From Bolinopsis microptera (taxonomy: Eukaryota; Ctenophora; Tentaculata; Lobata; Bolinopsidae), in the NCBI RefSeq assembly GCF_026151205.1, contig NC_087074.1, forward strand, positions 11,763,182-11,823,181: 60,000 nt of DNA, given 5' to 3'. This document shows, in pieces, positions 7,601 through 52,146 of the stretch. Position 1 is the stretch's first letter; each line of letters opens with the position of its first letter. The translations under genes and the position numbers were made by a program. The notes beneath the pieces are model-generated. The model was not told where the DNA came from and did no database searches. It saw only the letters and a list, made by a program, of their open reading frames with translations.

Positions 7601-10600
7601 AAGGGGATAGTCACGTGGGGGCTAAGGAACTCTATTACTTGGTTGATGTGGACCGTTTACAATGCTATTACGAGGTATCTGTAACTGTAACTTGTAAGAT
7701 AGAAGCTGTGACAAAGGATAAACGCCAAGCTTATATTGTTGTTGTTTTATATAACGTATTGTTTTAAACTTGGCACCTTGTAGTTCTTATCTTTGAGAAC
7801 GTGTTATTTATTTCATAACTAGCGTTGAGCATTTTTGTGAAGGTCATTGCAGAGAACTTCAAACCGCATTTGATTTCCCATTTTGTTGTCAGTTTGCATT
7901 TATTATTGAACTTACTACACTCGTTGTATTATGAAGAAAACACTATAAACAGCAATAAATATCACATTGTATCGTACGGTATTACCAAATGCAAATTCCC
8001 TGGATCCAAATTGTTCACCGTACATTGGTTGTTTCCGTTTCACGACAGATCCGTTAAGGCTTACCCAATCCGTTTTATTGTGTTTGATCCGTTTCACTAT
8101 AATAAACAAGATATATTTCACCGTACCTGATTTAAGTCGAGTTCAGTAAGGCACCGGTAGTACAGCATGCTCTTTCTAAAAGTGTTGTAGTACTTCTTAT
8201 CCTTGTTCAGTATGTTGTATATTCCCTCTTGTACCTGCAAATATTAACATTTATTGATTATGTTGAATTAAATATTTCTTTGTAGATAGCTGAAGTTCAC
8301 GTACCAAAGAAGGAACGTTAGACCGATGTTTAACAAACAGTTGTTCATTTTAATTTGGTGGCTGATAGCAGGTGAGCAATATTTTATATCAAACTCGTTT
8401 ATCAAACTCTTTGCTTGAACAAATTGTGATTTATAAAACATATAAAACACCACTACGAATATTTATCATGAGCTTAGTTTGAATCTGTTCTGAATCTCAG
8501 GGATATCGACTGAAATAGTGACAATATCAGATTGTAAACTTGGAGAAGAGTTGAACCCTACAGCTACAGCATGTAGTAAGATAATAGATTACTATTTGTT
8601 ACCCCAAATTCCAGGAAATAACATAGCTTTTCAAAATTCACATATTAGATATTTATCACCGAAACAGGAGGTATTTATTTATCTGTAGCACAATCAGTTC
8701 CTTAAATAGCCAGGGGGAAAGCGCACGTCTCATCTTGTCGAAACGTCTGTAACACCACAGTAACACCACAGTAATACTACTGTAACACCACTGTAACACC
8801 TCTGTAACACCACTGTAACACCACAGTAATACCACAGTAACACCACAGTAACACCACTGTACCACCACTGTACCACCACTGTACCACCACAGTAACACCA
8901 CAGTAACACCACAGTAACACCACAGTAACACCACTGTACCACCACTGTACCACCACTGTAACACCACTGTAACACCACTGTACCACCACTGTAACACCAC
9001 TGTAACACCACTGTAACACCACTGTAACACCACTGTAACACCACTGTACCACCACTGTACCACCACTGTACCACCACAGTAACACCACAGTAACACCACA
9101 GTAACACCACAGTAACACCACTGTACCACCACTGTAACACCACTGTAACACCTCTGTAACACCACTGTAACACCACTGTAACACCACTGTAACACCACTG
9201 TACCACCACTGTAACACCACAGTAACACCACTGTAACACCACAGTAACACCACAGTAACACCACAGTAACACCACTGTACCACCACTGTAACACCACTGT
9301 AACACCTCTGTAACACCACTGTAACACCACTGTAACACGTAATAACTAATAACTAACGCGAGATTCCCCCAGCGATGTGCAGACCAGGGCACTACAGAAA
9401 CAGTACAATGTCAGAGTGCGCTAAATGTGCTGTGAACAGTATTGCACCCTACAGAGAAAGTATATTGTACGAGAACTGTCCGAAGTGTTCAGATGGGGCT
9501 GTAGCCGATGAACCGAGGTGGCAGTGTAGTAAGTAATCATTACTTTTATTTTGGAGGGTAGCTTCAGGTTTGAATCAGTGGGAGAGAGATTTAATGATAA
9601 CGTGCTACACTGTGTTTAGAAACTGAGTTCATTTTTATTTACATTTAAAGGATTTTATGTGCTGAGCTGAGACCGGTTGTATTAGCTCTCAACAAATATC
9701 TACTTCAGTTGAGTGTAGGATTGGGACGTACAGGAGCTCTGACCTGACTGTCTGTACGGGCTGTCCTCTCAATACGTACGCTAGTAGCACAGGGAGTTCG
9801 GAATGTGCGGAATGTGGGGCCGGAACAGCGGCTAACTCTCTGAGAACCGGATGTGGTGAGTAACTTATATCTATGATATAATTCTGTTTCTGTTCCATTA
9901 GGTGTGTTACATTTTAGATTTATTTGATTCAGGCGCGCGTTTACGTTTAAGAAATAAGGCTGACCATAAGTTGTTGATTCTTTAATCTTTTATGTTGTTT
10001 ATCATCAAATAACATGATATTTTACATTAATCAGAGAAATTTTTTTAGTAATTATTTAGTATAATAAATACCAATAATTATAACTAAATTATCAAATTTA
10101 CATAATCAAAATTTATGGAAGTAGGAACTTCCATGTTAATATAAAAACCGCGTTAAGAATAACTTTCCGCTTAGAATACAACCTATGACAATCGTCCATT
10201 TGCGAGATTATAAAGTGTCTCCTTTATTTCAAAGGTTATTTTAAATCAATTATTCCGAAACTTTCATTACTGAAATGAGAAATCTTCTCCTTTAAAGTCT
10301 TCTCAGAAATCACCGAAATCTCCAAAATCGCCGAAGTCGTCTCCGCCGAAGTCGTCTCCGCCGAAGTCGTCTCCACCAAAACCATCGTCCCCGCCGAAAC
10401 CACCATCATCTCCTCCAAAACCACCATCATCTCCTCCAAAACCACCATCATCTCCTCCAAAACCACCATCATCTCCTCCAAAACCACCATCATCTCCTCC
10501 AAAACCACCATCATCTCCTCCAAAACCACCATCATCTCCTCCAAAACCACCATCATCTTCCTCTGGGAAGAGATCAGCTGGAGCTTCACGGACTTCCCCA

Positions 10601-13600
10601 AATCCAGGCGTCTCCTCACATTTAGACGCTTCTATACAGCACAACCTAGGACAGACGCTCTGCATCCAAATACCACCAGCAGTTTCCAAAGAGCATTCTG
10701 AAGGAGAAGCACCCATGGTGGCACAGAACCAGTCGTCAGGAGGCAGGTTAGCGCAGTAGTCACCTCCACACTTCGGTAAGTCTTCACAGAACAGGATCTC
10801 CGCTAGACCTGCCGTGATAACTCCGTCTTCAGGAGCGTCCATCCCTACAAATGAGATGGCCAGCTCACCGTACTTAGATAAGTCAACGTCATTGCTGAAA
10901 CACCACGGAGCAGGAGCCACGCCCTCAGGATTTCTGCAGTAATTATGATTCAGATTTGAACCATGAGCCATGGCAGCTTTACCATATTCAACTAAATCTT
11001 CATTGACGTAACCGAACAGCCCCTTGGCCACCACTGCCTGCCAGTTGAGGCACTTCAAAGCAGGATAGCTCACAGTTTCATCTTTCGGGCCGTTGTAGTT
11101 CTTTCCATTGCCACTCCAATCACCACCATCTATCTGCACACATGCCTGCAAGATCCTACTGTCAGGACCGTAAAGATCCTGTACAACACAGTGGTTCTCA
11201 GCCCCAACTAGACGGTACCCAGAGTTGCACTCTACCTCCAAAACTTCCCTATTTTGCAGCATGCCTCTGTTCAGAACCCTACCATTTTCTATAATTGGAA
11301 GGTGACACGTTCCAGTTGGAGGGTCTCCGACTCCCGCAAGGACGTTAACATTGTGCTCCAAAGTTCCACAGTCACTGGGGTGGAACTGGCAGGTGTGGGG
11401 ACACAATGCCATCACTGCACTAATCCCACACAACTTCAAATAGCTGGAACAGTCTCCCTTCGTGAAGCTCTCGTTGTCTTTACAAGAATCACGTGCACAT
11501 ACCAAGCAGGTTCCAGCACAGATTTTCTTTATTTTTTCATTCTTGCAGTTTTCCCACTTCTTACCCTGTTCGGCACATGTCAACTCAAATCCTGGTGTGT
11601 CAAGACATTCTGGACGTCCAGTAAAGTCCCAAACTTTATTTTTGTTGGCTGGAGCCGATGTTTTTGGGTCATATCCCTCAACAAGTGGACCTTCGTTAGA
11701 GACACATTCTTGGTCCGCTTTTGTGCACGTGTAGGTACTTTTACACCATTTTGGTGAGTGAACTGGACACTTTGTAACCGGATCATAGCCTGCTTTGTCA
11801 TCAACCAAGGTGACCTCAGCAGCCTTTAGGTTGTTCTCAATACCACAAATATTACCACCTCGAGGGATGAGGAAATGACCTCTTCTCATCCAAGTGTCAC
11901 CCCTGCTGTCCCGAACTATGTAATACTCTGTCCCTGACTCGTCTTTATGTGTACCAACTATCAGGACGTTGATGTGTGTGAAAATTGTAGATTTACCGTT
12001 GATCACGTGACCATTCTCACCAGTCAACCAGGAGGAGTATCCATCAATGAGGCCGTCTTGGTCGTTGTCAAAGTACTTGGCAGTGTACGCATCCCAATCT
12101 TCAACCAGCTTGCTCTTTCTTTGTAGGTACGAGCATTTCATTTCGTCCGTGCTCATCTTTGCAAAGACAAAACCTGATTTCTCCAGCCATTCATCCACTT
12201 CTTCAGGCAGCATCCTTGACTGTTCTCCTACATGGATGGGATTCAGCTGGACTTGCAAGCCGTTAGGAGCTTGAGCCGCCCTACAAATAGAGGATTCAGC
12301 AAGGGCACCACCTTGAAAGGGCAGGTACAAATCATCTGGAGCCAACCTCTGCTGAACATTGACCCATTTCACCAGATGATCAATCTGAACATCAGAACAT
12401 CCACTGTAGAAACAGTCGATTATCTCCTGCTCTGATAACTTAGTCGGGGTCTTCCCTGTTAATTTCTGGTACCCGATCTCCAGAGCTCCTGTCAAAGCAA
12501 AGGCAGCAGTGTTTTCACAGAGGCCTCCAGTGAAGGGGTGTCGCCTGGAATGAGGGGGGATACCGGGTAGGTCGTATTGTAGACTAGATGATTTCCTCTG
12601 GTGGAGCGTATCAATCGCATTGGCAGCAGCAAGAGCTGCAATTAGGACGACGGCAGCTAACATGGTTGCATTAAGAATGTGTCTGATAAAAAAAGAAAAA
12701 AAGGCTGCTTTACTTCTTAAAATTTAAAATATGTAAAATTGTCGACAGTTTGGACCATTCATTTATTCTGGCGAATCAAATCACACCATAGGGAAGCCCA
12801 TCATCGACACAAACAAACATTTTTGCATCAAATTGCATCATGCGTTGTGGCAGATCATTGGCAAATTATCAAGATTAAAAACAACAAAACCGTTCTTGTC
12901 CCCCCCTGTCGAGCTTCCGAACCTTTCAAAACTAAACTTAGAAAAGCTATTATTTTCCTACCAATGAATCTATTATCGGCTATGAAATGAAACTGTGATC
13001 TCTAATTAATCAATCAATGAATTTCGAATATCTGTCAACTCCAAAACATTTAAGCCGCTATTTAAAATTAGGCGATATATAAAGTCTTTTCTTTAGTCAG
13101 AAAAAGTACATCAAATTCTGTAAATTCTCGGCTGACGTGGATCCATCATTATCTTCAAAGACTCGAGATTTGAGGATTGACAATATATTTCCTAGCTTAG
13201 TTAATTGTGACACGTCATGCATTTCGACGAAATAATTAGCATGCTTATGGAAGTTGCTAACATGTAGTACCCCAGTCGACAACTCCTGAACATTGGTGGG
13301 GTTTAAAAGGCGAATGTACGAACCAACTTATCTAAATTATTGTATTTGCATTATAAAGCTAATTAATCACAACTATAATCAATAACTATCTTACTTTTAT
13401 TTAGTTTTGTTAATAAAATTGTTCCAGACAAGTGTCCAGTGGGAGAGTACAGGAGTTCAGATATGGACACGTGTTCAAAGTGTGCTACAGAGGGAACTGA
13501 ACCGAATGTAGAACAGAGTACTTGTGGTATGTTATATAGGTACACTGTTATTATTCGTAAAATGCTGTTATATATACTCCTTTTTAACAACGTTAAACAC

Positions 13601-19600: not shown

Positions 19601-22600
19601 CAGGATGAAGTTGAGGGGTATGTTTGGACAGGGTTTGTTGGTGGGGAAGGGTTGGGTTGCGTCGTTATGGGTACTGTGCATTGTGCTGTCTGGGTCAGAT
19701 CCGGGTTCAAACACGTTCTGAAGACATTTATCCAGATTAGATTTATAGGATCCGGAAGGAGAGATCGCATAAGATTTGAATAGAACATCTTTTGTAAGTT
19801 CTCGAAACATAATATTTTGCAATTAGTCTTTAGTCGAGATTGCAATTTAAATCAGATCAATCACGTCTGTCGGAATCTTACCGGTTAACATCAGAACACC
19901 ACCAATATCACAAAATAAAAATATGCATTACAATCTAAGTGAGCTGCAGTCTTACCTGATATCTGATGCTGACTTGACGAAGAGTATACATCAAGCTGTC
20001 CAGCTGTTGTCTCCAGTTTGTTATATTCCCACCGTCCATCGCTCGTAGCCGTGAAATGTCCTAAAAGCAAGGCTTACAAAACTGAGGTTAGGAAAAACAT
20101 CATAGCAAGGAAGTTGTGACAAGTTATTGATGCTTCTATCTAGTTTTAGTGTCTCCTAATTGTCTCCTAATTGTCTCCTAATTGCCTCCTAATTGTCTCC
20201 TAATTGTCTCCTAATCAAATATCTGAGAGGAATGAAGATTACCTTTTGTAACCTGTCCTCCAAATGGTCCAGTTCAGTAGGACTAGTGCAGCAGTGTATT
20301 GCACCCAGGAAGGACTCCGATGTTAAGCAGTCGTCTTTTAGCCACGCCATGAAACACTGGTTCACATAGTCTGGCTCTACGATTGACTGGAAAAGTGTAC
20401 TGTTATGAAAACAATCAAAAGTCACAACGAGAGGTTTAAATGTGAGCCAATTAATGTGAATTAAATTCTACGTGACTGAAAATAAAACTTACATCCATGG
20501 TCCTGACAACCTCCCTAACGAATTCCTTAAGTATGCACCTCCTTCTTTTTACATGAAGTTTGCATCACTTATCAATGAGTCCTTTGAAAAACAAGAGCAC
20601 GTTCAATCGTTCACTGAGGGATATCTTACCCCCCTACAGAAGCCTGGAAAACCAAAAGGACCAGTTAAGAGTCTGCGTCCCTTATGCCTTCTCAATGGAA
20701 CTAGGAAAATCCTTTCCATGATAACACTCCAGCGTATTCAACAACAGATAGCAGACTACACTGGGCCATGGCAGAATGCCTATAAATCAGGACACAGCTG
20801 CTCTAATATTGTCTGGACACAAAGGGTTCTTATTTCTGTTGTCAAGGAGAAACATTGGGAGTTTAGTAAAATGGGGATAGACATGTCATCAGCCTTCGAC
20901 ACAATACATCGGTCAACTATCCTCAGGCTACTCGAAGATGCAGGATGCTCAGAAGATGACATAAGACTAGTTAGATATCTACTCGCTAACACCAAGCTCA
21001 GAATTAAGATCAAAAAGACGACATCGGGAGAGTTCGAAGTCACAATAGGAGCCTTTCAAGGTGACTGTTTGTCTGGCTCGCTGTTTACCATGTACCTAGC
21101 TGGAGCACTCTACCACCTTAGAGTTGTTGTTATACATCTACGCCCAAATCCCCCCATATCTGAAAGCTCCCTTCCTTTAGAATGGGAATATGCTGATGAT
21201 GTGGACTTTGCTGATGAAGATGAGGATTCGTTACACCAGCTCCTTCCAATTTGCAAGGAAATTCTCTCAGAATGGAATTTGTTTGTAAATGAATCTAAAA
21301 CCGAGTTTGTAAAGTGTTATCTGGCTGGAAGTAGTGAGAAGGACGAAAAAGGAGAACCTCTAAGAAATAGAGAACCTTGGAGGAAGTGTGTGTCCCTAGG
21401 CTCTAAGCTATGTAGTAAAGAAGACATACAGCATCGTATAATCCTTGGAAATGTTGCATTCGAAAAATACAAGAAAGTTTGGATGCAAGGATCTAAGATT
21501 AATCTGAAGACCAAGATTAAGATATACGAAGCATACGTTACATCTGTTATGCTCTATAACTGCAATAGCTGGGCTACCCCTCAGAACCTATTTGACAAAC
21601 TTGATGCATGTCATAGAAGACACCTGCGTCAAATATTGAAGATGACTTATCCCATTATTATCAGTAATAAAGCACTATATGAACGCTGTGGTGTAACACC
21701 GTTGTCAGAGCGAGTGACATATGCTCGCTGGAAAATGCTGGGACATGTCCTTCGCAGTGACTGCTCATCACCAGCTCAGAGAGCTCTTCAATTTGCTGTT
21801 AATGCGTTATTTACCATGAAAGGACGTGTTGGTCGACACCAAAGTAATCTTTTAAAGTTTATTATAAATGATTTGAATAAAAGAAACCTACCATTACGTG
21901 ATATTAATGATCTTTATGATCTTAGGGCTACTGCCTCTAACAGAGTTTTGTGGAGAAAATTATTTACCTCATAATTAACCTCTTTTTTTTCAGAGAACTG
22001 TTATGTTTTTTTGGGCACTTATCAGTCTCTTAAGATGTTTCTTTACTATTTCGAGATTGTTTTAAAAGTTAGATAATAAATAATAATATAATACATCCAT
22101 GGTGGGTATGAAGCAGCAGGTAGTAACTAGCTCTCTGATCAGGACTCTCATAGGATAACACTGGAAACTCTGCTTGGGTAGTAATAGGTACAGGAGAATA
22201 TCCACTAAATTCCTGGGAAGAAATAAGTTTGATAACAACTTCAAGATGCTGATATAAGAATTTACAATATTATATGAATATAATATTCCATTCAAAATTA
22301 GAAAAACAAAAGAGAGTGATTTGATCAACTTCAAATTTTAAAATTAACCTGACGTAGACCTCCTCAGCCTCTTTGTCAGTACAAATAACACCAAACTGAC
22401 TCTCCAATTCAAAGAAAACTCTTATCTCGTCCTGTGCTGAGTAATTAGTAAACACTCGTAACCGCTCTTGTGTCTTTTTGAATATCCTGAGGTGCAACGA
22501 TGATTTAGATAGATTGTATATTCATGTCAATTGGAAAAACGTGGGTCATTGTTCTAAATCTATGCTGAACAGTTTATGTGAACTTTGAACTAACCGCAAA

Positions 22601-25600
22601 TGTGATGTCATATCAGTGAGAAAGGGTCCGGTGGAGAGGGCAATGAAGTCAACATCTCTGAGCTTTGCAGAGAGGTTAACCACAACTGACTGTATAGTTT
22701 TACGAACTTCAAACTTAAACTCTTCATCCTGGAGAATGAAAAATTATTCAAATTCAAGTTAGGAATGCAAGTTTGCAAGCATCAAAATTTTGCACATTTT
22801 GAATAAGTGCACTCTATATTTAAGATAATTAGAAAAGCTTATCGTCTAAACTTTAACTTAGATATAAGGCTATGCTACACTTAAATGCTTGAAAAGTTTA
22901 AATCCCAATTATTCCACGTAAATTAGATAGCTGTACCTTGCTGATACCTTTATACCATTCATCAACAAAATCCCTCATAAACAAATCCAGTACTTCATTG
23001 AAGGGTTCATCTATTATGGTAGCACCTAAAATAAAGAAATTCTCTGAATTTGTGCTTCAATAGAACATGATTAGAAAAATTATAAATCCCAATGAAGATT
23101 ATTATAAAATTCCCGCACGAACAGAAATAACAAAAGCAAACACCACAAAAAGGATTGAAGCCAACAGTAGAAATATGTTTAATAGCTCATCACTCGAAAA
23201 ACTTTGTTATCAGTCACACATTGAGTTTACCTGATAGGCGCTTATCCAACTTCCATGTTAATCTGAGTTTTACTAGCTTTTCCAAAACAGCTGACAGACC
23301 ATTTGAGGGAGGTTTCAATAAGAGAGCCTGTAATGTTTGGGGAACAACTCAGTCAACAGAGTATTAAACTAACTAGTTTTAAACTAATTACAACACTACA
23401 AATCTATTACATTTATTGAGGACCCCCAGTGGGAACTAATGCCTCGGTAAATGTAACGACCATTACAGGTTGTATGTCAATGTAAATGGTTGTTGCATGA
23501 TAAAGTTATCTTAAAGACATCCTAAGGACTATCAGACATCGATTTTTAAAGCAGTTTACTCCCATCTATCACCTAAAGATTATCAGACATCACTTATCCT
23601 TATCCTCCGGAGTGCTACAAAGGTACTGTAATCATTAACTAAATTTCGAACAGTAGCATCTTTTTGTGATAAACTATGTCTAGAATACCAGAACTTGGCT
23701 CAAGAGATTACAATCTGAGATATCGAGGGAATGCTGTTAAATTCCCCAGTAATGGCTCTCGTCCTACTGATAAATGTTCAAATTGTTTAACTCTATTAAG
23801 AGAGAATGATCGTCTTCGTCGGCAAATTTCTATTCTCTATAAACAATTATCAGAAAGTGACAGTGCACTCAAAGTTCCCCTCAGCGATAGTTCACTTGTC
23901 ACTGTGTTGCCCCAGGTACCTGATCACTGTGAACATTCTATCAAAGTTCCCCTCAGTAATAGCTCATCCTCGCATCTTGTTTCTGAGTTAACCCAAGAGC
24001 TATCCAAATTAGCAGAAGACAGTGAACATTCAGCAGAAATTATCAATTCGGAAAATCCCAGACACTCTGTAAATGGTGTCAATGGTGTGACCAACTCTAT
24101 CATTCCATACCAAGATTTGAGTCGAGGAGTTTTTCAGTTTGTTGACACTGCCAAGTTAGATATAGAAACCCACTATACTCATGAGTTTGAGAATAGGACA
24201 GTTGCATATTATGGGGACTTTCCCTACGCTTACAATGGAGGCTTTCATAACACAAGGCCAGTAGCAGACAATCCCTACCTTAAGTCTATTTTAGAACGCT
24301 TACGCTCACAGTTCCCAAAGTTGAAATTCAATAGTGCTATGATTACCAAGTATAGAAATGGTCAGCAAGGAATTCCCTTTCACTCGGATGACGAGAGGTC
24401 AATTTCACCAGGCTCCATGATCTCCACCATCTCTTTAGGGGCTACTAGAGTCCTAAGCTTCAGATCCAAACTTAGAGCTCATATTGCTGACCTTACCCTC
24501 TCCCATGGTGACATAATGAATATGACCAGACAATCCCAGACCAGCTTTGAACACAGCCTCATCCAGGACAAGTCTGAAACCATGAGAATAAGCATTACCC
24601 TGCGCCAAATTGATGGCAGCGCAACCTTATCTACTCTGTCTGATGTTTCCAGTCAAGTTAAGAACACTGAACCCTCGGCCCCTAAGACTAGATCAATAGA
24701 ACATTCTGGTAAATCTTTGTGTGTCTACATTAGCTCTAGTATGTTCTCCAAATTAGAGGGAGAAAAGCTATCGTCCAAACAACATGAGGCACATGTATTC
24801 AGCTACCCTGGTGCCACAGCCAATGCAATCAATGAACGGTTTCAATCAGATGTAAGAAAAGACACTCTTAATACCAATAATGTGAAAAGCATTGTACTTA
24901 TGTGTGGTACAAATGACGTGGACTCTATCCTGAACAGCCCTCGCAACATGAGGACTAAACTTCTGTGCCCTGATAGTTTTTCTGGTGATGCTAGAGCTCT
25001 TGACTTTACAAACAATTGTATTGAAAAACTTGTACTTTTCCTTCACAAGTGGGCACCTGGAGCTGATATTAAAATTGTTAACTTATTACCTCGGGAGAGT
25101 TTCTCCAGAAACAAGGTTATAACAGATATCAATGGATGTATATCAAATCTGCAAAGAAAATACACCTATGTAAAACTGCTCTCAACCGAGACAAATCGTT
25201 TCTTGTTTAGTGATAAGAAAGGCTTCAGAAAATCGTCATTTTTTAGTAGTTATGGAGAGGATAATGTCCATCTCAATGATTATGGCATATTTAAATTAGC
25301 AAGGCACTTGAAGTATCATGCACACCATTAGAATACTGCTGAATACTGACATAACACTCCTACCATCAGTTTTATTTTTACAGTACGACATCCAGACAAA
25401 TACAACCTGCTTTTATTCTGTTTTTTAGTTTAAACACAACTTTACAACTTTTATTCATTCCATTGTGAATTAATAAGATTCACAAGATGACAAATTTTAA
25501 TAATGCAGCTGATAGGTTTCACAACCTCTGCATTGGTCATTGTAACATTCAAGGAGGGCTTCTTAATTTAGCTAAAAGTAATGAACTTTCCCAACTTATT

Positions 25601-28600
25601 AGAGATCATAAATTAGACATACTTTCCCTAAATGAGATGAATCTTAATGATACTATTGACACAGACACCATAAATATTCCTTCCTCCTTCAACCTTATGC
25701 GATGCGACAGGCCAAACAGTTCTAGGGGTGGTTGTGGCTTAATGATAAACAAAAAACTAGCTTACACAGAATTAGTTATGGATAGTAAGCTTGATAACAT
25801 TGAAGCATTATGGGTGAAGCTTAAGAATAGCAAGATCAATGTTTGCTGCTTCTATCGCTCTGGAAATTATTGCAGTGTTGATAACTTTATTGAATACATT
25901 CATTTTTGCATGAAAAAATTGAATGGGAAAAAAGGTTATCTGGATTGGGGATATAAACATTGACCAGAATAATATCTCATCCACCCAGTACAAAAATTAG
26001 ATATGACCTTGAGATGTTACAATCTAGTTCAAACCATTCAAGGGATAACTAGAGTTGCTAAACGTGGAGACAATTTTACCCAGACTACTATTGATGTAAT
26101 ATTCACTAACTGTTATGCAGATTTTGTTCAATCTTCTGTTCTTGATGAACGTATTGGGGATCATCAAGCTATTATGTGTGAGATAGATTGTAAAGTACCT
26201 ATAGCTCCTAAATTGAAAAGGTTGAAATTAGAAATCATTGTAAACGTCATGTTAAACAATTCTTAGACTATCTAGATACCTGTTCTGATTACAGTCCACT
26301 ATTCGAAAGTACAGATGTTGAAGCTATCACTGCTGGCCTTTGTCATCATATTGAACAGGCATATGCAACCTTCTTCCCTTGCAAGACCATAGAAAGGCAT
26401 GAAAAGTTCATACATAAACCTTCTACTGGACTTTTAAATGCCATTAATCATACACATTTTCTTCTAAAGAAATTCCGTAAAAAGAAGGATAAGAGAGACA
26501 ATGGAAATTGCAATAAATGTGGTACATGTAGCAAATGTATAAAGTGTAATGAGGCCTGGGATTGCTACAAGATTCAGAGAAATATGAGAAATAAATTAGC
26601 TAAAACCTGCAAAAAGGCTAATGTAATCGATGATCTACAAGTTAAAAGTGCCAAGAATGATCTTAAAGGGATATGGAAAACTATCAAACTGGCATCAAAT
26701 ATGACCCCTGGTACAACTAATTGTCAAACTATCAATGAGAATGATCCTGAGCTATTTAACTTTCATTTTGCAAATGTTGGATCAAGATTACAAAATCAGG
26801 CCCCTAATATTGAAAGAGTTAGTTTTACTGATTTTTTACCTCCTAGAACTTCTAACATCTCATTTGATAAATTCCAAGAAATAAATGAAACTGATATCCT
26901 AATGTATGTCGAAACGCTCAAGAATGACAAGGCCTCATATGACGATGTGCCTCTATTTTTACTTAAGCAAGCTGTACCACACATAGTTGAACCACTGACC
27001 CATATTGTCAATTTGAGCCTTAATACAAGTGTTGTACCAACCCTTTGTAAAAAAGCTAGAGTAACTCCCATCCATAAGGCAGGAATGAAAGATGATCCTA
27101 ATAATTACAGGCCAATATCCATCCTTCCACTTATAGGAAAACTTATAGAATACTTTGTCGGCAAGCAACTCACTGATTACATGGAAGAGAACAAATTTTT
27201 CATCCGGCATCAATATGGCTTTCGGAAAATCACTCCACAACTTATTTGATGTACGATCTGATGGACGAAATATATATGAGTAAATCTAAGTCTTATAAAC
27301 CAGGAATCATCTTTCTTGATCTTAAGAAGGCCTTTGACACAGTGAATCATGAAATATTGCTTCAAAAATTGGCATATTATGGAATTGGTGGCATTGCTTT
27401 AACCTGGTTTAAGAACTTCTTATCTTGTAGATATCAATGCACAAGGATCAATGGCAATCTAAGCTCATTTTTAGAAGTTCTGAGTGGTGTACCACAAGGA
27501 AGCATCATTGGGCCTATATTATTTAGTATCTTCATAAATGACATCATTTATGCCTGTAACCTATCTAAGCCCTTTCTATTTGCAGATGATGGTGCACTAT
27601 TCTTTGATCAAACCTGCAGAAGCACATTTATAAACATGAAAATAGAACTTATGACAATCTTTAAATGGCTCAGTGTTAATAAATTATCACTCAATGAAAA
27701 GACGACTGAATTCCTATTGTTTGATTCTGTTGATCAACATGATGAATTAACCATTGAATGTAATGAGGTAACTTTCACAATCAAGGAGTGCAAAGAGACA
27801 AAATATCTTGGCCTCATTCTAGATAGTAAATTAAACTTCAAAAGCCATGTAGATTATATTATTAGGAAGGTCATGAAGAGAATTGGTGCCATGTATAGAA
27901 GCAAAGCACTGCTACCCATAAATATAGGAAAATGTTTGCCAATGCACTCATGTTGCCACAATTCGATTATTTGGACACGATCTATTGTAGAGCTGGCAAG
28001 ACAAAACTTGCTGAACTTGACACTCTGTACAAAAGGTAGCCAAAATAGCTCTCAACGTTCCACAAACAGAGAGCAGCCTTAATGTTTATAGAGACATGAA
28101 ATGGTTACCACTCCATCTTAGACGACAACTCCATCTGTCAAATTATATGTTTAGAATCATCCATGACAATTGTCCTACAAACTTTATGAACAAATTTAGT
28201 ACATATCAGGAGGTAGTAGGAGCGGCGAAAGCTGCAACCTATATGTTAATAGATCAACATCACATAAAAAACTTTCAATACTTGGGGGCAAAATGTTGGA
28301 ATAATGTTCCAACAGATCTACGAAATCTGCCCGATGTTAAAAGCTTAAGTGATTCGTATAAGAAACAGCTACTCTCATCTATAACAACAGACCCTAATTA
28401 CACCGTCGACAATTCATATGACAAATTTTACACTGCAATCATAGTCGACGATAACTAAGTATCTTCTAATTCTTTTAAATCTGAGGCATATATAATTTAT
28501 GTCGAAAGGATATTCCCTTTTTGACCACCTTACCATTCTGATTGATTTTGCACATGACTGACATGTTTTAACTGGAGAAGGGATTCGCACAGTGGTAGTT

Positions 28601-29641
28601 TTATAAACCACTTTTAATTTATTGACCTATTATACCTAGTGGTAGTTTTATAGACCACATTTAATTATTAACTTATCATACTTAGTATTTATTTTTGGTG
28701 ACTGTATCACCCAGTTTTAACATTTGATAATTGTACAGTTTATTGACGACACATTGACTGAATGTTATTTTATATTCTAATTTATATTCTAGATATTTTA
28801 TTTATTTTACAACAGACGACAACTTCCTGTTTTTTCTTCTATATTAGTTACTCATATCTCTTGTACAGACTGTTTTACAAGGACATTGACAGATGATACT
28901 CACATTAGGCATTCATTATTGCATCTAAATTATTTCACTTGCATTAGGTTTAAAAATTTATTCTCTGGTTAACAGATTTCAAATGTTCAATCAATTTGTA
29001 GTATGACAGTAAGGTATATAAGAAGTTATTTAATTTTGCTTGGGCTATTATATTGACTATTGAGGTTTAATGATGATATGGAATTTGAATTCTATATAAA
29101 TTTACACTATGTGGTTGGGGCATTTTGCATAGTAAATATGGTTACTACTCCTATATATCATATTATTTGATTGGTATTCGATTTCTGATTATTTCTTAGG
29201 AATATGATTATTATATCTCAATTTGGCTTTAGGTAGGGTGCCCCGCTAAAAGAACTGGATTCTTCCAGGAAGCCATCCCGTGCACAGACCTTGGTCTACA
29301 TATATATTAAATTATTAACCATTCATTCTGTATGTGCACGAAAATTTATTTCAATCAATTCATCATTATAATCAACAAACAAGATATTCTGTCGATTTAG
29401 ATTAATTTGGCAATCAGATTTACCAGGCCATGATACTTACACAATTATCAAAAAATAATATCAAAAATGGATGTATAATAACCTTATATCTGTAGAGAAT
29501 CTTTCTTTTGACCTCGGCACCAAAGAACCAGCTGACAGCAAAGAGTCCAGCAAAAAAGGTGATGAAGAGGGATACAAGGTTGCAAAGATAGAAGAGGCCA
29601 TATTTATTTATCACGAGAAATGATACTACATAAGACCACAT
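713..29641 (-). CDS. SNX13: Sorting nexin 13 homologue (RGS-PX family), 16 exons in window, 3' end outside
   Basis: Exons (minus strand, high to low): 29641-29483, 23327-23231, 23025-22937, 22728-22595, 22486-22349, 22212-22095, 20386-20243, 20060-19956, 19717-19506, 19129-19048, 14233-14099, 13285-13110, 4680-4539, 1592-1376, 1230-1094, 798-713. I chose boundaries by GT/AG sites; every junction keeps the frame (for example GCG|G, TCAG|AC, AT|C). They give about 720 residues in the order TM segment, PXA, RGS, PX, start of Nexin_C, which is the order of the SNX13/14/25 family. Wording is closest to SNX13: KRLSGATIIDEP, RDFVDEWY, EPDYVNQ, SLKYFIDFM and ENIPLKVLILLTDEVFDMK. Family knowledge: SNX13 is an ER/lipid-droplet contact and endosomal protein with a G-alpha RGS module. 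The Nexin_C remainder is missing because the window ends. Exon 1 follows a good acceptor (TTTTCAG), so a further upstream exon is possible. Confidence 0.9.
1609..1716. repeat. 18-bp minisatellite, 6 perfect units with CACGTG
   Basis: Six exact copies of an 18-bp unit (GTTATGTGTCGTCACGTG) run from 1609 to 1716. Each unit contains the palindromic E-box CACGTG overlapping a CGTCA half site. It lies just upstream (minus strand) of the acceptor of SNX13 exon 14. The short plus-strand ORF across it is an artefact of the period. Confidence 0.95.
1763..1781. repeat. G homopolymer (19 G)
   Basis: An uninterrupted run of 19 G in an intron. The 1782-2340 stretch after it is AT-rich and holds no recognised feature. 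Confidence 0.9.
2380..3313 (-). pseudogene. Possible gag/ORF1-like retroelement relic
   Basis: Three minus-strand open stretches (3313-2973, 2907-2632, 2598-2380) in different frames look like parts of one decayed reading frame. The first contains a knuckle-like YDHCGTAGHVSTTC in which the first Cys is replaced by Tyr. The second is Pro-rich, and the third is an amphipathic helical stretch (SLSRAQFTRKRC). This pattern is seen in ORF1/gag proteins of retroelements, but the match is weak. No reverse transcriptase is next to it. It lies in an SNX13 intron. Confidence 0.3.
3320..4440. other. Intronic sequence, nothing recognised
   Basis: About 1.1 kb between the relic and the repeat near SNX13 exon 13. 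I see no gene, RNA or clear repeat. A locally GC-rich patch (CGCGGCGCCGCG at about 3643) is a short palindrome. Confidence 0.4.
4446..4538. repeat. Imperfect 12-bp repeat (ATTAATTATCCC)
   Basis: About seven degenerate units of ATTAATTATCCC / ATTAATTACCCT directly abut the donor of SNX13 exon 13 (GT at 4538-4537 on the minus strand). Confidence 0.8.
4883..4957. repeat. 13-bp tandem repeat (CGCGCACTGATAA)
   Basis: About six near-perfect 13-bp units; one has CGTGCACTGATAA. Intronic. The following 600 bp (4958-5590) hold no recognised gene; the short plus-strand ORF at 5018-5281 has no recognisable domain. Confidence 0.9.
5590..5844 (-). mobile_element. tRNA-derived SINE
   Basis: Read on the minus strand from 5844, the sequence has a tRNA-like head. 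It carries an A box (TAGCGCAGTTGG) in a D-arm-like segment and a B box (GGTTCAAATCC) in a T-arm. The acceptor arms GGCCAGG and CCTGG also pair partly. The anticodon arm does not fold, so this is a SINE head, not a tRNA gene. About 180 bp of unrelated body follows. The 3' end is uncertain. Confidence 0.7.
6315..7181. mobile_element. Foldback/MITE-like element with 17-bp terminal inverted repeats
   Basis: TTATAAACCCCTCCGGG at 6315-6331 is repeated as an exact reverse complement at 7165-7181. Inside the left part are repeats of TAATCCCG(C/G)CTCCCGCT (6340-6400). The interior encodes no transposase, so if it is mobile it is non-autonomous. A target-site duplication is not clear. Three CACGTG sites lie at 6518-6590. 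Confidence 0.55.
7200..7350. repeat. Cluster of hairpins next to the foldback element
   Basis: Successive inverted repeats: AATAACCCC...GTGCT/AGCAC...GGGGTTATT (about 7214-7250), AATAAT...ATTATT (7251-7290), and TTTTTCCCGCG/CGCGGGAAAAA (about 7292-7317). A further CCGGGGTTAT follows at about 7339. They look like a truncated or rearranged relative of the neighbouring foldback element. Confidence 0.6.
8326..13911 (+). CDS. Secreted or membrane protein with ephrin-receptor-like cysteine repeats and a Sushi domain (6 exons, incomplete)
   Basis: Exons: 8326-8371, 8501-8575, 9373-9528, 9709-9855, 13428-13526, 13708-13911. All five junctions are phase 1, the signature of exon-shuffled extracellular modules. 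Exon 1 is a signal peptide (MFNKQLFILIWWLIA). Exons 2-5 each carry a cysteine-rich repeat of the ephrin-receptor-like/GCC2_GCC3 type, with the recurring motif C.xGxYRSSDxxxC.xC (for example CRIGTYRSSDLTVCTGC and CPVGEYRSSDMDTCSKC). Exon 6 is a Sushi/CCP domain (CGPVNIPNS, VHVTCIDGFHHVG, ITCQGSRDW). Reading on without splicing meets a TGA at 13925; the GTGAGA donor suggests more exons downstream that I could not find. Extracellular adhesion or matrix roles are plausible but not shown. It is nested in and interleaved with SNX13 on the opposite strand. Confidence 0.8.
8745..9338. repeat. 11-bp minisatellite, about 54 units
   Basis: Nearly perfect tandem 11-mers of CACCACTGTAA with three recurring variants (CTG/CAG, GTAA/GTAC, CCACT/CCTCT). 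They end 34 bp before the acceptor of exon 3 of the Sushi gene. Because 11 is not a multiple of 3 and the unit has no stop on the minus strand, all three minus frames are open for 180-220 codons and encode an 11-residue repeat. These are not genes. Confidence 0.95.
10223..10228 (-). terminator. Polyadenylation signal AATAAA of the pseudoprotease gene
   Basis: TTTATT on the plus strand reads AATAAA on the minus strand, about 75 bp after the stop codon of the 786-residue ORF. Confidence 0.5.
10303..12663 (-). CDS. Secreted modular protein: inactive papain-like domain, ShKT, Sushi, Kringle, Gly/Asp-rich tail (786 aa, single exon)
   Basis: Residues 1-16 are a signal peptide (MLAAVVLIAALAAANA). 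Residues 45-290 form a C1A papain fold: LSEQEIIDC, VLIVG, EYYIVRDSRGDTW and NICGIEN are recognisable. The active site is lost. The CGSCWAF site reads CENTAAF (Cys to Thr), the His of HAVLIVG reads INVLIVG, and the Asn of KNSWG reads RDSRG. No I29 propeptide is present. Then come ShKT-like modules (about 353-432), Sushi (453-508), Kringle (508-632, with NYCRNPEG and PWCF), another ShKT-like module (632-682), and a tail of GGFGGDD repeats (704-786). The acceptor TTTTTTTATCAG just before the ATG suggests a 5' UTR intron. An AATAAA lies about 75 bp past the stop. It sits inside intron 4 of the Sushi gene and intron 12 of SNX13. A substrate-binding or structural role is an inference. Confidence 0.85.
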   Translation of the reverse strand: MLAAVVLIAALAAANAIDTLHQRKSSSLQYDLPGIPPHSRRHPFTGGLCENTAAFALTGALEIGYQKLTGKTPTKLSEQEIIDCFYSGCSDVQIDHLVKWVNVQQRLAPDDLYLPFQGGALAESSICRAAQAPNGLQVQLNPIHVGEQSRMLPEEVDEWLEKSGFVFAKMSTDEMKCSYLQRKSKLVEDWDAYTAKYFDNDQDGLIDGYSSWLTGENGHVINGKSTIFTHINVLIVGTHKDESGTEYYIVRDSRGDTWMRRGHFLIPRGGNICGIENNLKAAEVTLVDDKAGYDPVTKCPVHSPKWCKSTYTCTKADQECVSNEGPLVEGYDPKTSAPANKNKVWDFTGRPECLDTPGFELTCAEQGKKWENCKNEKIKKICAGTCLVCARDSCKDNESFTKGDCSSYLKLCGISAVMALCPHTCQFHPSDCGTLEHNVNVLAGVGDPPTGTCHLPIIENGRVLNRGMLQNREVLEVECNSGYRLVGAENHCVVQDLYGPDSRILQACVQIDGGDWSGNGKNYNGPKDETVSYPALKCLNWQAVVAKGLFGYVNEDLVEYGKAAMAHGSNLNHNYCRNPEGVAPAPWCFSNDVDLSKYGELAISFVGMDAPEDGVITAGLAEILFCEDLPKCGGDYCANLPPDDWFCATMGASPSECSLETAGGIWMQSVCPRLCCIEASKCEETPGFGEVREAPADLFPEEDDGGFGGDDGGFGGDDGGFGGDDGGFGGDDGGFGGDDGGFGGDDGGFGGDDGGFGGDDGFGGDDFGGDDFGGDDFGDFGDFGDF
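10390..10560 (-). repeat. Coding 21-bp minisatellite (GGFGGDD tail)
   Basis: About eight 21-bp units inside the C-terminal coding region are almost identical at the base level, not only in protein. This indicates recent slippage or homogenisation. They give an acidic, glycine-rich tail. A second frame across the units is also open (MMVVLEE repeats) but is a shadow. Confidence 0.9.
12664..13100. other. Intergenic/intronic, nothing recognised
   Basis: Upstream of the pseudoprotease start and its probable UTR acceptor. The 83-codon plus-strand ORF at 12739-12990 has no recognisable domain. A promoter for the nested gene could lie here, but I see no motif. Confidence 0.4.
13110..20060 (-). CDS. 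SNX13: SNX13 exons 8-12 (linker helix and RGS domain)
   Basis: Exon 8 (20060-19956) is a helical linker, ITNWRQQLDSLMYTLRQV. Exon 9 opens the RGS domain with NSISLKYFIDFMNH and FLYMWLSVDCFR. Exon 10 gives DELKSRVDMAAADGRIISD. Exon 11 gives EAKRIYLEGLSED and ARLETAITSLPITPFLFDE. Exon 12 (13285-13110) is the least certain. It fits in phase on both sides, and its ILSILKSRVFEDNDGS resembles the SNX13 segment after the RGS core, but identity is low. The intron between exons 10 and 11 contains a whole GPCR gene and a TTAA-type MITE. Exon 9 has a long low-complexity start, so its acceptor (CTTCAG|AAC) is chosen by phase. Confidence 0.75.
14686..15486. mobile_element. TTAA-flanked MITE with about 120-130-bp terminal inverted repeats
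   Basis: The ends GGGGGCATACACCAAA... (14686 on) and ...TTTGGTGTATGCCCCC (to 15486) are inverted copies. Matching continues inward for about 120 bp, through GACCAAATGACCTCATAGGCAGTT and AGAATACCCATTTTTGTAATCGAGCA. The left arm has an extra dozen bases. Both ends are flanked by TTAA (14682-14685, 15487-15490), the target site used by piggyBac-type transposases. There is no transposase ORF, so it is non-autonomous. It lies in the SNX13 intron between the RGS exons. Confidence 0.85.
15834..18167 (-). CDS. LDLa-repeat class A GPCR (777 aa, single exon)
   Basis: The N-terminal hydrophobic segment (about 11-27) is probably a signal peptide. The ectodomain (to about 350) has LDL-receptor class A repeats, including CISQLCDSKFDCLDYSDEC-like (about 128-162) and a clear one at 305-336 (CDSIPDCSDSSDEC), plus degenerate Cys-rich repeats. 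Seven hydrophobic segments follow: TM1 about 356-378, TM2 394-416, TM3 439-461, TM4 484-506, TM5 604-625, TM6 659-683, TM7 692-715. The TM3 end reads SLYRGYT instead of (D/E)RY. TM7 has NPILHT in place of NPxxY. Extracellular loop 2 is long (about 90 residues). LDLa plus rhodopsin-type 7TM is the arrangement of relaxin-receptor (RXFP)/GRL101-like receptors, but no leucine-rich repeats are seen. It is nested in an SNX13 intron on the same strand, and its ligand is unknown. Confidence 0.85.
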   Translation of the reverse strand: MLSKPSYSHSVSLILTTSLWIACWFWCSDGHMVNFTTLTSLLNRQDGRPYSFLNDYLLSKVYEELTCTGLAQWAFSRAIREPNLWIKPDRNMAGYYMCIEGNIGDRGCAIPTSWECDGFSSCLTDECGCGEDTFKCADGNGCIAISQLCDSKFDCLDYSDECTCHDYQHCRRIIHFNKETIDASKLCFIMPNCSRTLAKETAKSNELSKLTGILDVVVTNFPSKEQTLDIRKQAELADCEQNTTLGFHCKRIMFEPESDSTYSCSENSSIEVTYDRKQSSTSKATFVFCDRIKNCKNGIDEQHCPGTFYCKSNQLPVPEELTCDSIPDCSDSSDECDNCTMSSYFSSQTSLVASKTMIIFMMIETLGILCLNAYALVYHLKRYKKGSSSSLKIDIVHCVTLALYDVMLAVYLGIVCWKHWEFEGEYCLHDVSWRSSVLCKVTGAIAFASTHGALQVVVATSLYRGYTICIRGIGGQEINFKLFSGLYITMNMFNVTMAVLPLIATFSHFPLADAFVHEHFFKSNPLIRRGRKADLALLVSLYKRLDLNTTLQNTTTDLFKVLRNMTWKGDLFSPDKITSVGLYGASSMCFPDLFSTEESLLTYKIIYVLENSIYLLLTVISYRFIIEEFFKSRAAVNSGNNQNPGNENNRDADQKFFLSFKVSILIGLQLACWLPVHVAMIASLMEHTLPPGTINIITMTVVPLNALMNPILHTDLLKRSVLHLVPMRVKHVKEFIFRASSDPQETSGNSIGQLELEVIQPRNLDDKQNPDTISPDL
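18180..19040. other. SNX13 intron upstream of the GPCR, nothing recognised
   Basis: AT-rich. Presumably includes the 5' region of the GPCR gene. A short plus-strand ORF at 18335-18586 shows no domain. Confidence 0.4.
20149..20215. repeat. 11-bp tandem repeat (TGTCTCCTAAT), 6 units
   Basis: Six near-perfect units in the intron just after SNX13 exon 7. Confidence 0.9.
20243..23327 (-). CDS. SNX13: SNX13 exons 2-7 (PXA domain)
   Basis: Six exons give a continuous PXA (PX-associated) domain: LDKRLSGATIIDEPFNEVL at the exon 2/3 junction, RDFVDEWYKGISK, VRKTIQSVVVNLSAKLRDVD, LTDMTSHLRIFKKTQERLR across exons 4/5, FFELESQFGVICTDKE, NLVDILLYLLLPK, LIRELVTTCC and VEPDYVNQCFMAWLKDD. Each matches the corresponding block of animal SNX13. 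Introns inside the domain are short (94-366 bp). The exception is the roughly 1.7-kb intron between exons 6 and 7, which holds the RTE-like reverse transcriptase insertion on the opposite strand. Confidence 0.9.
20472..21974 (+). mobile_element. RTE-like non-LTR retrotransposon, 5'-truncated, with an open 500-codon RT ORF
   Basis: Reverse transcriptase blocks appear in order: GPDNLPNEFLKYAP, PLQKPGKPKG, RPLCLLNGTRKI, catalytic GIDMSSAFDTIHR, AFQGDCLSGSLFT and EYADDVDFADE. The C-terminal part (YEAYVTSVMLYNCNSW, LDACHRRHLRQIL, KMLGHVLRSDC) is typical of RTE-group elements. No endonuclease domain is present, so the copy starts inside ORF2. The reading frame has no stop, so the insertion is fairly recent. 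A T-rich stretch and an LTR-less 3' tail follow. It is antisense to SNX13, in the intron between exons 6 and 7. Confidence 0.85.
23400..23675 (+). other. Probable 5' untranslated region of the AlkB-carrying retrotransposon
   Basis: Sequence between SNX13 exon 2 and the ORF1 start. It contains two copies of TATCAGACATC (about 23531 and 23580). The element's true 5' end cannot be fixed from one copy. Confidence 0.35.
23676..25331 (+). CDS. Retrotransposon ORF1: AlkB-type 2OG-Fe(II) dioxygenase fused to an SGNH-hydrolase-like domain (551 aa)
   Basis: Residues 31-60 hold CSNC and a coiled-coil-like heptad stretch (LRENDRLRRQISILYKQL), suitable for oligomerising. Residues 145-312 are an AlkB/ALKBH2-3-like dioxygenase: YYGDFPYAYNG, then FHSDDE with iron ligands H236 and D238, ISLGATRVLSFRSK, LSHGDIMNM, FEHSL with H293, and MRISITLR with the 2-oxoglutarate-binding arginines R304 and R310. 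All key residues are present. Residues 348-548 resemble an SGNH hydrolase: block I reads ISSSMF instead of GDS, block III is GTND (411-414), and block V is DNVHLNDYG (D529/H532). SGNH/esterase domains in LINE ORF1 are known from CR1-type elements; the AlkB part is not something I know from this setting. AlkB enzymes repair N-methylated RNA or DNA, so a role in protecting element RNA is an inference. Confidence 0.85.
   Translation: MSRIPELGSRDYNLRYRGNAVKFPSNGSRPTDKCSNCLTLLRENDRLRRQISILYKQLSESDSALKVPLSDSSLVTVLPQVPDHCEHSIKVPLSNSSSSHLVSELTQELSKLAEDSEHSAEIINSENPRHSVNGVNGVTNSIIPYQDLSRGVFQFVDTAKLDIETHYTHEFENRTVAYYGDFPYAYNGGFHNTRPVADNPYLKSILERLRSQFPKLKFNSAMITKYRNGQQGIPFHSDDERSISPGSMISTISLGATRVLSFRSKLRAHIADLTLSHGDIMNMTRQSQTSFEHSLIQDKSETMRISITLRQIDGSATLSTLSDVSSQVKNTEPSAPKTRSIEHSGKSLCVYISSSMFSKLEGEKLSSKQHEAHVFSYPGATANAINERFQSDVRKDTLNTNNVKSIVLMCGTNDVDSILNSPRNMRTKLLCPDSFSGDARALDFTNNCIEKLVLFLHKWAPGADIKIVNLLPRESFSRNKVITDINGCISNLQRKYTYVKLLSTETNRFLFSDKKGFRKSSFFSSYGEDNVHLNDYGIFKLARHLKYHAHH
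25487..28458 (+). pseudogene. Retrotransposon ORF2 (endonuclease + reverse transcriptase), frameshifted
   Basis: Open pieces: 25487-25963 (endonuclease: NLCIGHCNIQGG, ILSLNEMNLN), 26003-26266 (endonuclease end: GDHQAIMCEID), 26268-27249 (linker with a CxxC-rich patch and RT start NNYRPISILPLIGKLIEYF), 27246-28082 (RT core with FADD), and 28096-28458 (C-terminus). The breaks fall at about 25930 (an A6 run), 26225-26270, 27240 and 27950-28090. Each is a change of frame without loss of the flanking motifs, so the copy decayed by small indels. It cannot make a full ORF2 protein. Confidence 0.85.
28460..29480. other. AT-rich tail and intron sequence
   Basis: Includes a duplicated phrase (GTGGTAGTTTTATA.ACCAC at 28592 and 28640) that probably belongs to the retrotransposon 3' UTR. 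No gene seen. Confidence 0.4.
29483..29641 (-). CDS. SNX13: SNX13 exon 1 (N-terminal membrane segments)
   Basis: Encodes 53 residues starting MWSYVVSF. Two hydrophobic stretches (about residues 3-11 and 16-40, the second ending AVSWFF) are followed by a basic turn (KRK). SNX13-like proteins carry such an N-terminal membrane anchor before the PXA domain. The donor is AAG|GTTATT and the phase is 0. The next exon lies 6 kb away because the AlkB-carrying retrotransposon sits in this intron. The ATG is preceded by TTTTCAGTTT, so this may be a second exon with a non-coding first exon upstream. Confidence 0.7.
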
Positions 29642-46700: not shown

Positions 46701-48191
46701 CTTCTCCTCCTCCTGAGTCCTCCTCCTCCTCCTTCTCCTCAATCTTCCTCCGCCTAGCCTCCTCCTCCTCCTGAGTCCTCCTCCTCGTCCTTTTTTCCTC
46801 ATCATCAGTCCTCCTCCTCCTTCTCATTAGTTTACACAATTTATTGTTACTAAAATGTTTTTGAAAGCATTTGATTCTGTAACATGTTGACATGTTACTG
46901 TTACTGACGCAAAATGTGCTCAAGAATTTTTGTGTTTAACAGAATTTGACTCTCCAGTACTATGGAAAAGTTGTTACACGTTTTTTAATAAATAAAGTGA
47001 TTTTCATCCCTTTTAATGTTATTAAAAATTGTGTAGACTATTCTTTGTATCTAACTGAGGATTGAAAGTTTGAGGACCATGGTCATTAACCGTGCTACCC
47101 ATTTCTGCAGATAGCCTGTTACAAACTGTGGAGACAATTTAAATCAAAAGTTACTAAAGTGTTCGCTATTTTTTACAATTGTAATTTTACCAACTGCAAC
47201 CGTACCTCTTTCAATTGTGGAAAAAGGGTGTGATTTCGGAAAATGCCCCACTCGTGAAAAAGTGTACCCGAGTCAATTGTGTTATTTAGGGTCATATTAG
47301 GCGGATTAGATTGAGAAACTTAGCGCCAGTCCCAAGGTGAGCAGGACTTTTGCCTGGTCCAGGATTAAGTACCTATGTTTACAATCATTGTTGATAAAAT
47401 GATATATTGTATAAAATTGTACCTGTTAACATTCAGATGAACTATTATTTTGTACAGTGCAGTGTTTGACTGAATTTATTGTGTTTTGGTTCACACGCAT
47501 GCCACACACACAAATTTTTCAATCCGTTTCCAGGGATTTCCGATTTTTTGTACATTTATGTACATGGCCATCAGATTTTTGCCAAATGTACATGTACAAC
47601 AAGAATTGCGCCCGTTGTTTCGTTTTGGCGGACGCTAGATTTCCATTTCACATTTACTATAAATTTAAGTATAAGCTCCAATCAGCTCACTTCAATTTTC
47701 ATGATAATAATATTGATAAATTATGCATCAAATACGGGAAACACTTGAAATTCAGTTCAATTGCCGGAGAACTTAACTTGTATCTGTAAATCAAGAAATT
47801 ATCAGCAAAGGTAAACTATACTCGTGTACACATCAATACACTACGCGTGCCATGTACAAATTGGGCGTATTACCTAATAGTAATATTATACATTATATAC
47901 ATGCATCATATACATTATAACACAGTCGCGCCGCGCATTCATAGATCACAGGCTATTTATACATCACATCTCCGCAACCAATCCTCGATCGCGCGCGCCC
48001 AACTTTTTCGTTGCATGGTAACGAACGGAAGGAAGGACACACGACATATATATTTAAACCCACCTATCTCGTTCTCCAAAATCCACGTTTTTCTGCAAAA
48101 ACCTCCATTCGTAACCTTTCACTATTGCCTTTTTTCAAAAGGGTGAAAAGGAAAAAATGTACAAAAATGTAGTTGGACCCCCCCCCCCCAC
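43798..48191. mobile_element. 4.4-kb TTAA-flanked element with G-tract terminal inverted repeats
   Basis: The left end GGGA(G)21 TCCAACTACATTTTTGTACAT and the right end, read inverted, GTG(G)11 TCCAACTACATTTTTGTACAT match. Both are flanked by TTAA (43794-43797, 48192-48195). The subterminal phrase TGTACATGGCCA.CAGATTTTT.CCAAATGTACATGTACAA occurs near the left end and again at about 47558. Inside lies a 2.3-kb polypyrimidine array. I find no transposase. TTAA sites suggest piggyBac-type mobilisation (inference). Confidence 0.65.
44506..46832. repeat. 2.3-kb polypyrimidine tract built on TCCTCCTC(AG)
   Basis: The plus strand is almost wholly C/T, interrupted mainly by regularly spaced CAGTCC. 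A higher-order duplication of about 170 bp (about 45398-45560 and 45590-45745) is nearly identical. The long Ser/Pro/Leu-rich plus-strand and Arg/Glu-rich minus-strand ORFs are artefacts. At 44820-44970 it is broken by a CCCTGCACGGTC-type tandem repeat. Confidence 0.95.
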
Positions 48192-52117: not shown

Positions 52118-52146
52118 CTACAAACTCTAAGTCAGAATGTCAGAGT

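Follow-up and report, generated by a model that had tools for sequence, protein, structure and literature searches.

A LINE of the ctenophore Bolinopsis microptera with an AlkB domain and an SGNH-hydrolase-like domain in its predicted first protein

Introduction

In esterase-type LINEs (type IV ORF1), such as ZfL2-1, CR1 and RTEX, the first protein has a coiled coil or helix at its N-terminus and an SGNH domain at its C-terminus; the ORF2 behind it encodes an APE endonuclease and a reverse transcriptase (RT). According to the excerpted text of PMC3905857, the ZfL2-1 esterase hydrolyses pNP-acetate and binds phospholipids, and a transposon-specific histidine is reported for LINE esterases (H191 in ZfL2-1). 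For the Jockey superfamily, Table 1 of a survey of 448 elements gives RRM, CCHC, PHD, Tnp22, coiled-coil, zinc finger/leucine zipper and esterase domains, and AlkB is absent from that table (PMC4120745). GDSL ORFs are described in rotifer retroelements, with no mention of AlkB in the excerpt (PMC5408684).

The Alphaflexiviridae, Betaflexiviridae and Closteroviridae are positive-strand RNA viruses that replicate without reverse transcription. Like the element described here, they are RNA-based selfish replicators with an AlkB of their own, and viral AlkBs have been proposed to repair RNA (excerpt of PMC9289625). The same excerpt describes Phalaenopsis Ty3/gypsy elements with an ALKBH5-like ORF, whose product binds RNA and demethylates it in vitro. 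These are also retrotransposons that carry an AlkB. However, they are of the LTR type, come from a plant genus, and encode an m6A-eraser-like AlkB in a separate ORF, whereas the present element is a LINE from an animal, with an ALKBH2/3-like AlkB fused to an SGNH-like domain in ORF1.

In open-licence full text, a scope that excludes Repbase, most subscription journals and preprints, we found no LINE with AlkB and no paper bringing AlkB, SGNH and a retrotransposon together. This agrees with the original prediction, which knew of no described LINE with both domains. The AlkB in the excerpted parts of PMC8857917, PMC9921365 and PMC11294593 is host ALKBH2. As far as these searches show, esterases in CR1/L2/RTEX LINEs and AlkB in orchid Ty3/gypsy elements were known before, and AlkB in a LINE would be new.

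Results

Structure of the element

The window is the whole stretch of B. microptera DNA that was analysed (60,000 nucleotides). The element and its parts are as follows.

23375..29358, + strand: whole LINE copy, family A, about 6 kb (limits from alignment with other copies)
23375..23675, + strand: 5' UTR, with two alternative 5' starts among copies (read by eye)
23676..25331, + strand: ORF1, 551 aa, ATG start, intact (near-identical full-length copies in the assembly)
23775..23855, + strand: N-terminal CxxC (C34, C37) and predicted coiled-coil-like helix, residues 34-60 (alignment, low-confidence model)
24096..24611, + strand: AlkB domain, residues 141-312 (Pfam, solved relatives, alignment)
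24714..25328, + strand: SGNH-hydrolase-like domain, residues 347-551 (weak Pfam match, alignments, weak fold list)
25487..28459, + strand: ORF2 (endonuclease and RT), broken in the window copy (pieces in three frames)
25586..25626, + strand: breakpoint of identity between families A and B (40-base bins)
28460..29358, + strand: 3' UTR, with a 47-bp tandem repeat at 28591-28686

Judged by its domains and its copies, the element is a recently active APE-type LINE whose ORF1 fuses a CxxC/helix part, an AlkB domain and an SGNH-like domain. In the copy alignment, similarity begins near 23362-23378 and stops near 29358. The 3' end carries no poly(A) and reads ...tttatttcaatcaa. None of 2000 shuffles of the bases of ORF1 reached an open run of its length. 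C34 and C37 are invariant in all seven aligned ORF1s, and a low-confidence structure model places an N-terminal helix at residues 33-59. No RRM was matched by Pfam in the window ORF1, as in esterase-type LINEs. The window ORF2 is frameshifted and split over three frames, a point absent from the original prediction. Its pieces match Exo_endo_phos (1.8e-6, frame 25487-25963) and RVT_1 (2.7e-4 in frame 26584-27249 and 7.8e-24 in frame 27246-28082) in Pfam. In the search for a target-site duplication, no exact word of at least 9 bases was common to the flanks searched; the sole shared word of that length lies inside the element on both sides.

The window holds other features. A second LINE at 50970-55002 (+) has a 237-aa ORF without an AlkB match, followed by a 951-aa endonuclease-RT ORF2. 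Another retroelement, at 20472-21974 (+), is a 500-aa RT frame with an RVT_1 and a weak DUF6451 match. An 11-bp tandem array of 53.8 copies at 8747-9338 and a long TCC-rich array at 45040-46825 are each crossed by long repetitive ORFs. At 10303-12663 (-), a 786-aa single-frame protein ends in a run of GFGGDDG-type repeats.

The AlkB domain

The window ORF1 matches 2OG-FeII_Oxy_2 (PF13532) at residues 184-310 with an E-value of 2.1e-18, above the Pfam cut-off. The domain has the signature of AlkB dioxygenases, HxD...H for iron and Rx5R for 2-oxoglutarate. An AlkB domain with every catalytic residue in place had been predicted, and the profile search and the residues, each at its predicted position, confirm it. 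The iron ligands H236, D238 and H293 and the 2-oxoglutarate arginines R304 and R310 are invariant in the seven aligned ORF1s (window, L002, L032, L036, L037, L038 and L047), down to 31% identity. One of them, L038, lacks 17 AlkB residues.

ALKBH2, ALKBH3 and E. coli AlkB repair m1A and m3C, modifications that block reverse transcriptases. ALKBH2 is a dsDNA repair enzyme, and ALKBH3 prefers single strands. Cellular ALKBH2 and ALKBH3 are host repair genes and are not known to be fused to SGNH; they are the closest solved sequences to the ORF1 domain and likewise have the full Fe/2OG site. For the window ORF1, ALKBH2 ranked best (1.5e-13), followed by ALKBH3 (2.3e-11); ALKBH3 came first for the divergent L047. 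The solved relatives listed for the window, ORF1-alignment and L047 queries were ALKBH2, ALKBH3 and E. coli AlkB, with no ALKBH5 or FTO chain among them. We infer that the ORF1 AlkB is an ALKBH2/3-like demethylase, as a predicted function; sequence alone cannot separate an RNA from a DNA substrate, nor m1A/m3C from m6A. The host may have other AlkB-type genes, with candidates at C5:18690430, C2:9636400 and C5:22266892, and the top three PF13532 matches in the genome may be such genes.

The SGNH-hydrolase-like domain

All four SGNH blocks are present in the window copy (S355, G379, N413, D529 and H532). G379, N413, D529 and H532 are invariant in 7/7 ORF1s, and the nucleophile serine is found in six; L037 has a 3-residue deletion in the nucleophile region. 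The Pfam match to Lipase_GDSL_2 at residues 370-537 (1.2e-3) is below the cut-off. Matches in family B are weaker (0.016 and 0.0099) and also below it, and that of L047 is stronger (2.1e-5), yet still below it. Thus, of the SGNH-like domain that had been predicted, the catalytic blocks are in place, and the profile match falls short of the cut-off.

A sequence search with the domain alone against solved structures gave no match up to E 10, and the ORF1 alignment as query reached 2hsj at 0.022. The single-sequence structure models are poor (pLDDT 36 and 48, the latter for the SGNH domain). The Foldseek list for the SGNH model consists mostly of PAF-AH and acetyl esterases, with an APOBEC chain on top and no hit at E<=0.001.

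Compared with ZfL2-1, CR1 and RTEX, the element has an AlkB domain ahead of the SGNH domain, and its nucleophile motif is SSS, not GDS. The transposon-specific histidine lies four residues before the oxyanion asparagine (H191 and N195 of ZfL2-1); at this position the window copy has M409 and L047 has leucine. The original hint of a CR1-type esterase ORF1 therefore holds for the esterase-type layout and fails for this histidine. Since the histidine is absent, shared descent with the ZfL2-1 esterase does not follow, and that enzyme serves as a model for the SGNH part by analogy.

Families A and B in the assembly

A search of the assembly (264.65 Mb, 232 contigs) with ORF1 gave 82 matches. Family A, which includes the window copy, has 23 full-length ORF1 copies that are 95-100% identical, 22 of them without internal stops. 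Family B has 16 copies, 63-66% identical to the window over nearly the whole length and all without stops. The remaining 43 matches are fragments or more decayed; some are 50% and 41-42% identical, with many stops.

In the family B copy L032, ORF2 is intact (991 aa) and matches RVT_1 (1.8e-35) and Exo_endo_phos (2.1e-7), with no RNase H match in Pfam. With this ORF2 as query, at least 46 places matched at 98-100% identity, 43 of these 46 without stops; the count is a lower bound because only the best 46 of 6527 candidates were scored. The 3' end without poly(A) and the lack of an RNase H match are the only features that fit the CR1/L2/Jockey group, with which the element is thus consistent.

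As expected of an APE-type LINE, an ORF2 with endonuclease and RT lies directly 3' of ORF1. An ORF2 match from the 46 scored lies downstream of 19 of the 30 ORF1 matches labelled A (23 full-length, six truncated and one 84% copy) and of 10 of the 16 labelled B. Of the 19 paired A copies, 17 have a spacing of 158 nt and the other two have 159 and 241 nt; each of the 10 paired B copies has 138 nt. Unpaired ORF1s include the window copy, truncated copies and copies whose ORF2 lies outside the 46. The original assignment of the frame to ORF1 of a LINE is thus upheld by the endonuclease-RT ORF2 directly downstream in many copies.

The other LINE of the window (ORF2 at 52147-55002) served as a control. 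It has 51 genome matches, 20 of them full length at 98-100% identity. None of these 20 has, within 5 kb upstream on the same strand, any of 123 listed AlkB matches (the best 150 listed, after removal of the 26 family A matches and of a weak match that contains stops; none is of family B).

Selection on ORF1

Between the window copy and L032, the AlkB domain has a dN of 0.108 and a dS of 1.10 (Nei-Gojobori), giving a dN/dS of about 0.10. For the SGNH domain pN is 0.196 and pS 0.765, which is saturated, and for the N-terminal part pN is 0.436. AlkB is the slowest-changing part of ORF1 between A and B; between the window and L047, SGNH is slightly slower than AlkB (pN 0.447 vs 0.478). As judged from these rates, purifying selection acts between families A and B. 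Within families, dN/dS is higher and less telling, and rests on few changes: it is 0.36 overall and 0.16 in AlkB between the window and L002 of family A, and 0.51 overall and 0.53 in AlkB between L032 and L038 of family B.

Exchange of ORF1 above a constant ORF2

Families A and B share about 70% nucleotide identity in ORF1 and about 98% in ORF2 and the 3' UTR, with a single breakpoint. Per 100 bases, identity between the window and L032 is 0.41-0.84 through ORF1 and 0.93-1.00 from 25600 to 29300. When six A and four B copies are compared, identity between the two groups climbs at about 25586-25626, from 0.84-0.89 to at least 0.95, and identity within each group is 0.97-1.00 on both sides; beyond 26124 the B copy L036 departs and depresses the values. 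Because the two families differ in ORF1 and agree in ORF2 and the 3' UTR, with one breakpoint, ORF1 appears to move as a cassette. The alignments establish that recombination joins different ORF1s to one ORF2. The simplest reading is recombination, for example by template switching in reverse transcription, through which one 3' half acquires varied 5' halves. That LINE ORF1s evolve reticulately was already known (excerpt of PMC4120745).

Two 5'-end sequences are mixed among 25 A copies (L001-L025): by eye, 11 copies have the first and 9 the second, one has a variant of the first, and four show neither in this position. Over the approximately 300 bases upstream of ORF1, these ends alternate between near-identical copies, as if swapped.

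Further AlkB-SGNH families

PF13532 matches at least 151 places in the genome (the best 150 of 587 candidates in one search), for the most part in open frames several hundred aa long. These fall into recurring length classes, named here by their approximate ORF length in aa (593, 611, 630 and 646). A second RT clade, 44-47% identical to the window RT, has 42 matches listed. For 24 of these, one of the 123 AlkB matches lies upstream within 9 kb, and in 18 of the 24 it lies within 2.4 kb at a class-typical distance (7 of the 646 class and 11 of the 611 class). L047, of the 611 class, shares 31% identity with the window ORF1 and repeats its domain order, with a CxxC and a coiled-coil-like stretch (by eye), an AlkB match at 9e-21 and the Lipase_GDSL_2 match. 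Its SGNH part as query found at least 160 matches (150 candidates scored). We took 53 of these, none of family A or B, from the top of the list, and for 26 of them an AlkB match from the 123 lies 154-286 nt upstream; most of the 27 misses belong to the 630 class, whose AlkB is not among the 123.

With the L047 AlkB as query, 30 matches of the 630 class were listed, at 55% identity. An SGNH match lies just downstream of AlkB in 29 of the 30, at exactly 145 nt in 28. Two of four RT matches at 44% identity lie 1315 nt beyond SGNH matches of this class. In the 593 class (L049), the 441 bases from the AlkB end read into HDS and GIND motifs, SGNH-like by eye, with no Pfam match. This stretch, AlkB end included, matched 106 places, in several further length classes.

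On these predicted domains, five ORF1 families (A, B, 611, 646 and 630) combine AlkB and SGNH and have copies followed by an RT. The 593 class is probably an AlkB-SGNH fusion as well, going by its motifs, and further length classes beyond these six are indicated. No relatives were found by tblastn in viral and prokaryote collections.

AlkB matches also occur in very long frames. One (L048, C10:16876200-16877150) lies in an open frame of 3388 aa; the 951 bases at and after its AlkB end encode tandem peptide repeats and have no Pfam match. Five more such frames, of 2225-3366 aa, are among the matches listed.

Discussion

We propose that this is a recently active LINE whose fusion ORF1 protein would repair its own RNA template or cDNA, and we put the probability of this reading at about 50%. 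The N-terminal CxxC and coiled-coil-like helix would mediate self-association, and the protein would accompany the element RNA. The AlkB domain would oxidatively strip methyl groups that block the RT, such as those of m1A and m3C. Its substrate would be the RNA template or the first cDNA strand, and its action would allow full-length copying of the element. The SGNH part may act on membranes or lipids or help to localise the RNP, roles that have been suggested for the ZfL2-1 esterase. Template or cDNA repair is our first choice because m1A and m3C stop RTs and are removed by ALKBH2/3-type enzymes. The AlkB match and residues, the m1A/m3C repairers among the solved relatives listed, the open copies, the near-constant spacing, the AlkB dN/dS of about 0.10 and the precedents of the orchid and viral AlkBs support the proposal. 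The ambiguity of the substrate from sequence alone, the candidate AlkB-type genes of the host, the less telling dN/dS within families, the deletions in L038 and L037, the SGNH match below the cut-off, the SSS motif and the poor models count against it.

The main rival to template or cDNA repair is an action of the AlkB domain on RNA marks set by the host. In that case the domain would strip m6A or m1A with which the host marks or sequesters the element RNA, or alter host defence transcripts. For the orchid Ty3/gypsy AlkB, which demethylates m6A in vitro, such a role has been proposed (excerpt of PMC9289625). Exchange of the ORF1 cassette between elements is also what an arms race might favour. 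However, no m6A eraser stands among the solved relatives listed, which are ALKBH2/3 and AlkB, and we consider action on host marks unlikely.

We think it quite unlikely that AlkB instead has a DNA role like that of ALKBH2, repairing cDNA or target DNA at the integration site. ALKBH2 is indeed the top solved relative of the window copy, but ALKBH3 takes that place in the divergent family of L047, and ORF1 proteins are mainly known as RNP proteins. More doubtful still is the idea that neither fold is catalytic and both persist as scaffolds that bind nucleic acid and lipid. The atypical SGNH nucleophile motif would suit it, and SGNH proteins that have lost hydrolysis exist (excerpt of PMC3905857), but a mere scaffold would need none of the five AlkB catalytic residues, which seven ORF1s have kept. 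A chance juxtaposition, or a host gene that merely happens to lie next to a piece of a LINE, as the broken ORF2 of the window copy by itself might suggest, is rejected as extremely improbable, because many dispersed copies keep ORF1 before the same ORF2 in the same order and at near-constant spacing, as the original prediction of a non-accidental fusion demanded, and the 20 control copies lack a listed AlkB match within 5 kb upstream.

Beyond repair of its own template or cDNA by this one element, we tentatively suggest, at somewhat less than even odds, that in this genome a large and varied assemblage of LINEs has AlkB-SGNH as its standard first protein. This protein would be selected for its catalysis and passed between elements as a 5' cassette, and the elements would depend on their own demethylase against host modification or template damage.

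As far as the literature searches show, this element would be the first known case of a nucleic-acid demethylase in a LINE. It would add a further kind of RNA-based parasite with AlkB to the plant RNA viruses and the orchid Ty3/gypsy elements, and another such parasite suggests that selfish replicators really are hindered by methylation or alkylation of their template RNA. The swap of ORF1 above a constant ORF2 gives a detailed view of LINE ORF1 shuffling. Because the families are recent, multi-copy and have open frames, the proposal is directly testable. With well over a hundred related copies, the design seems to be a successful one.
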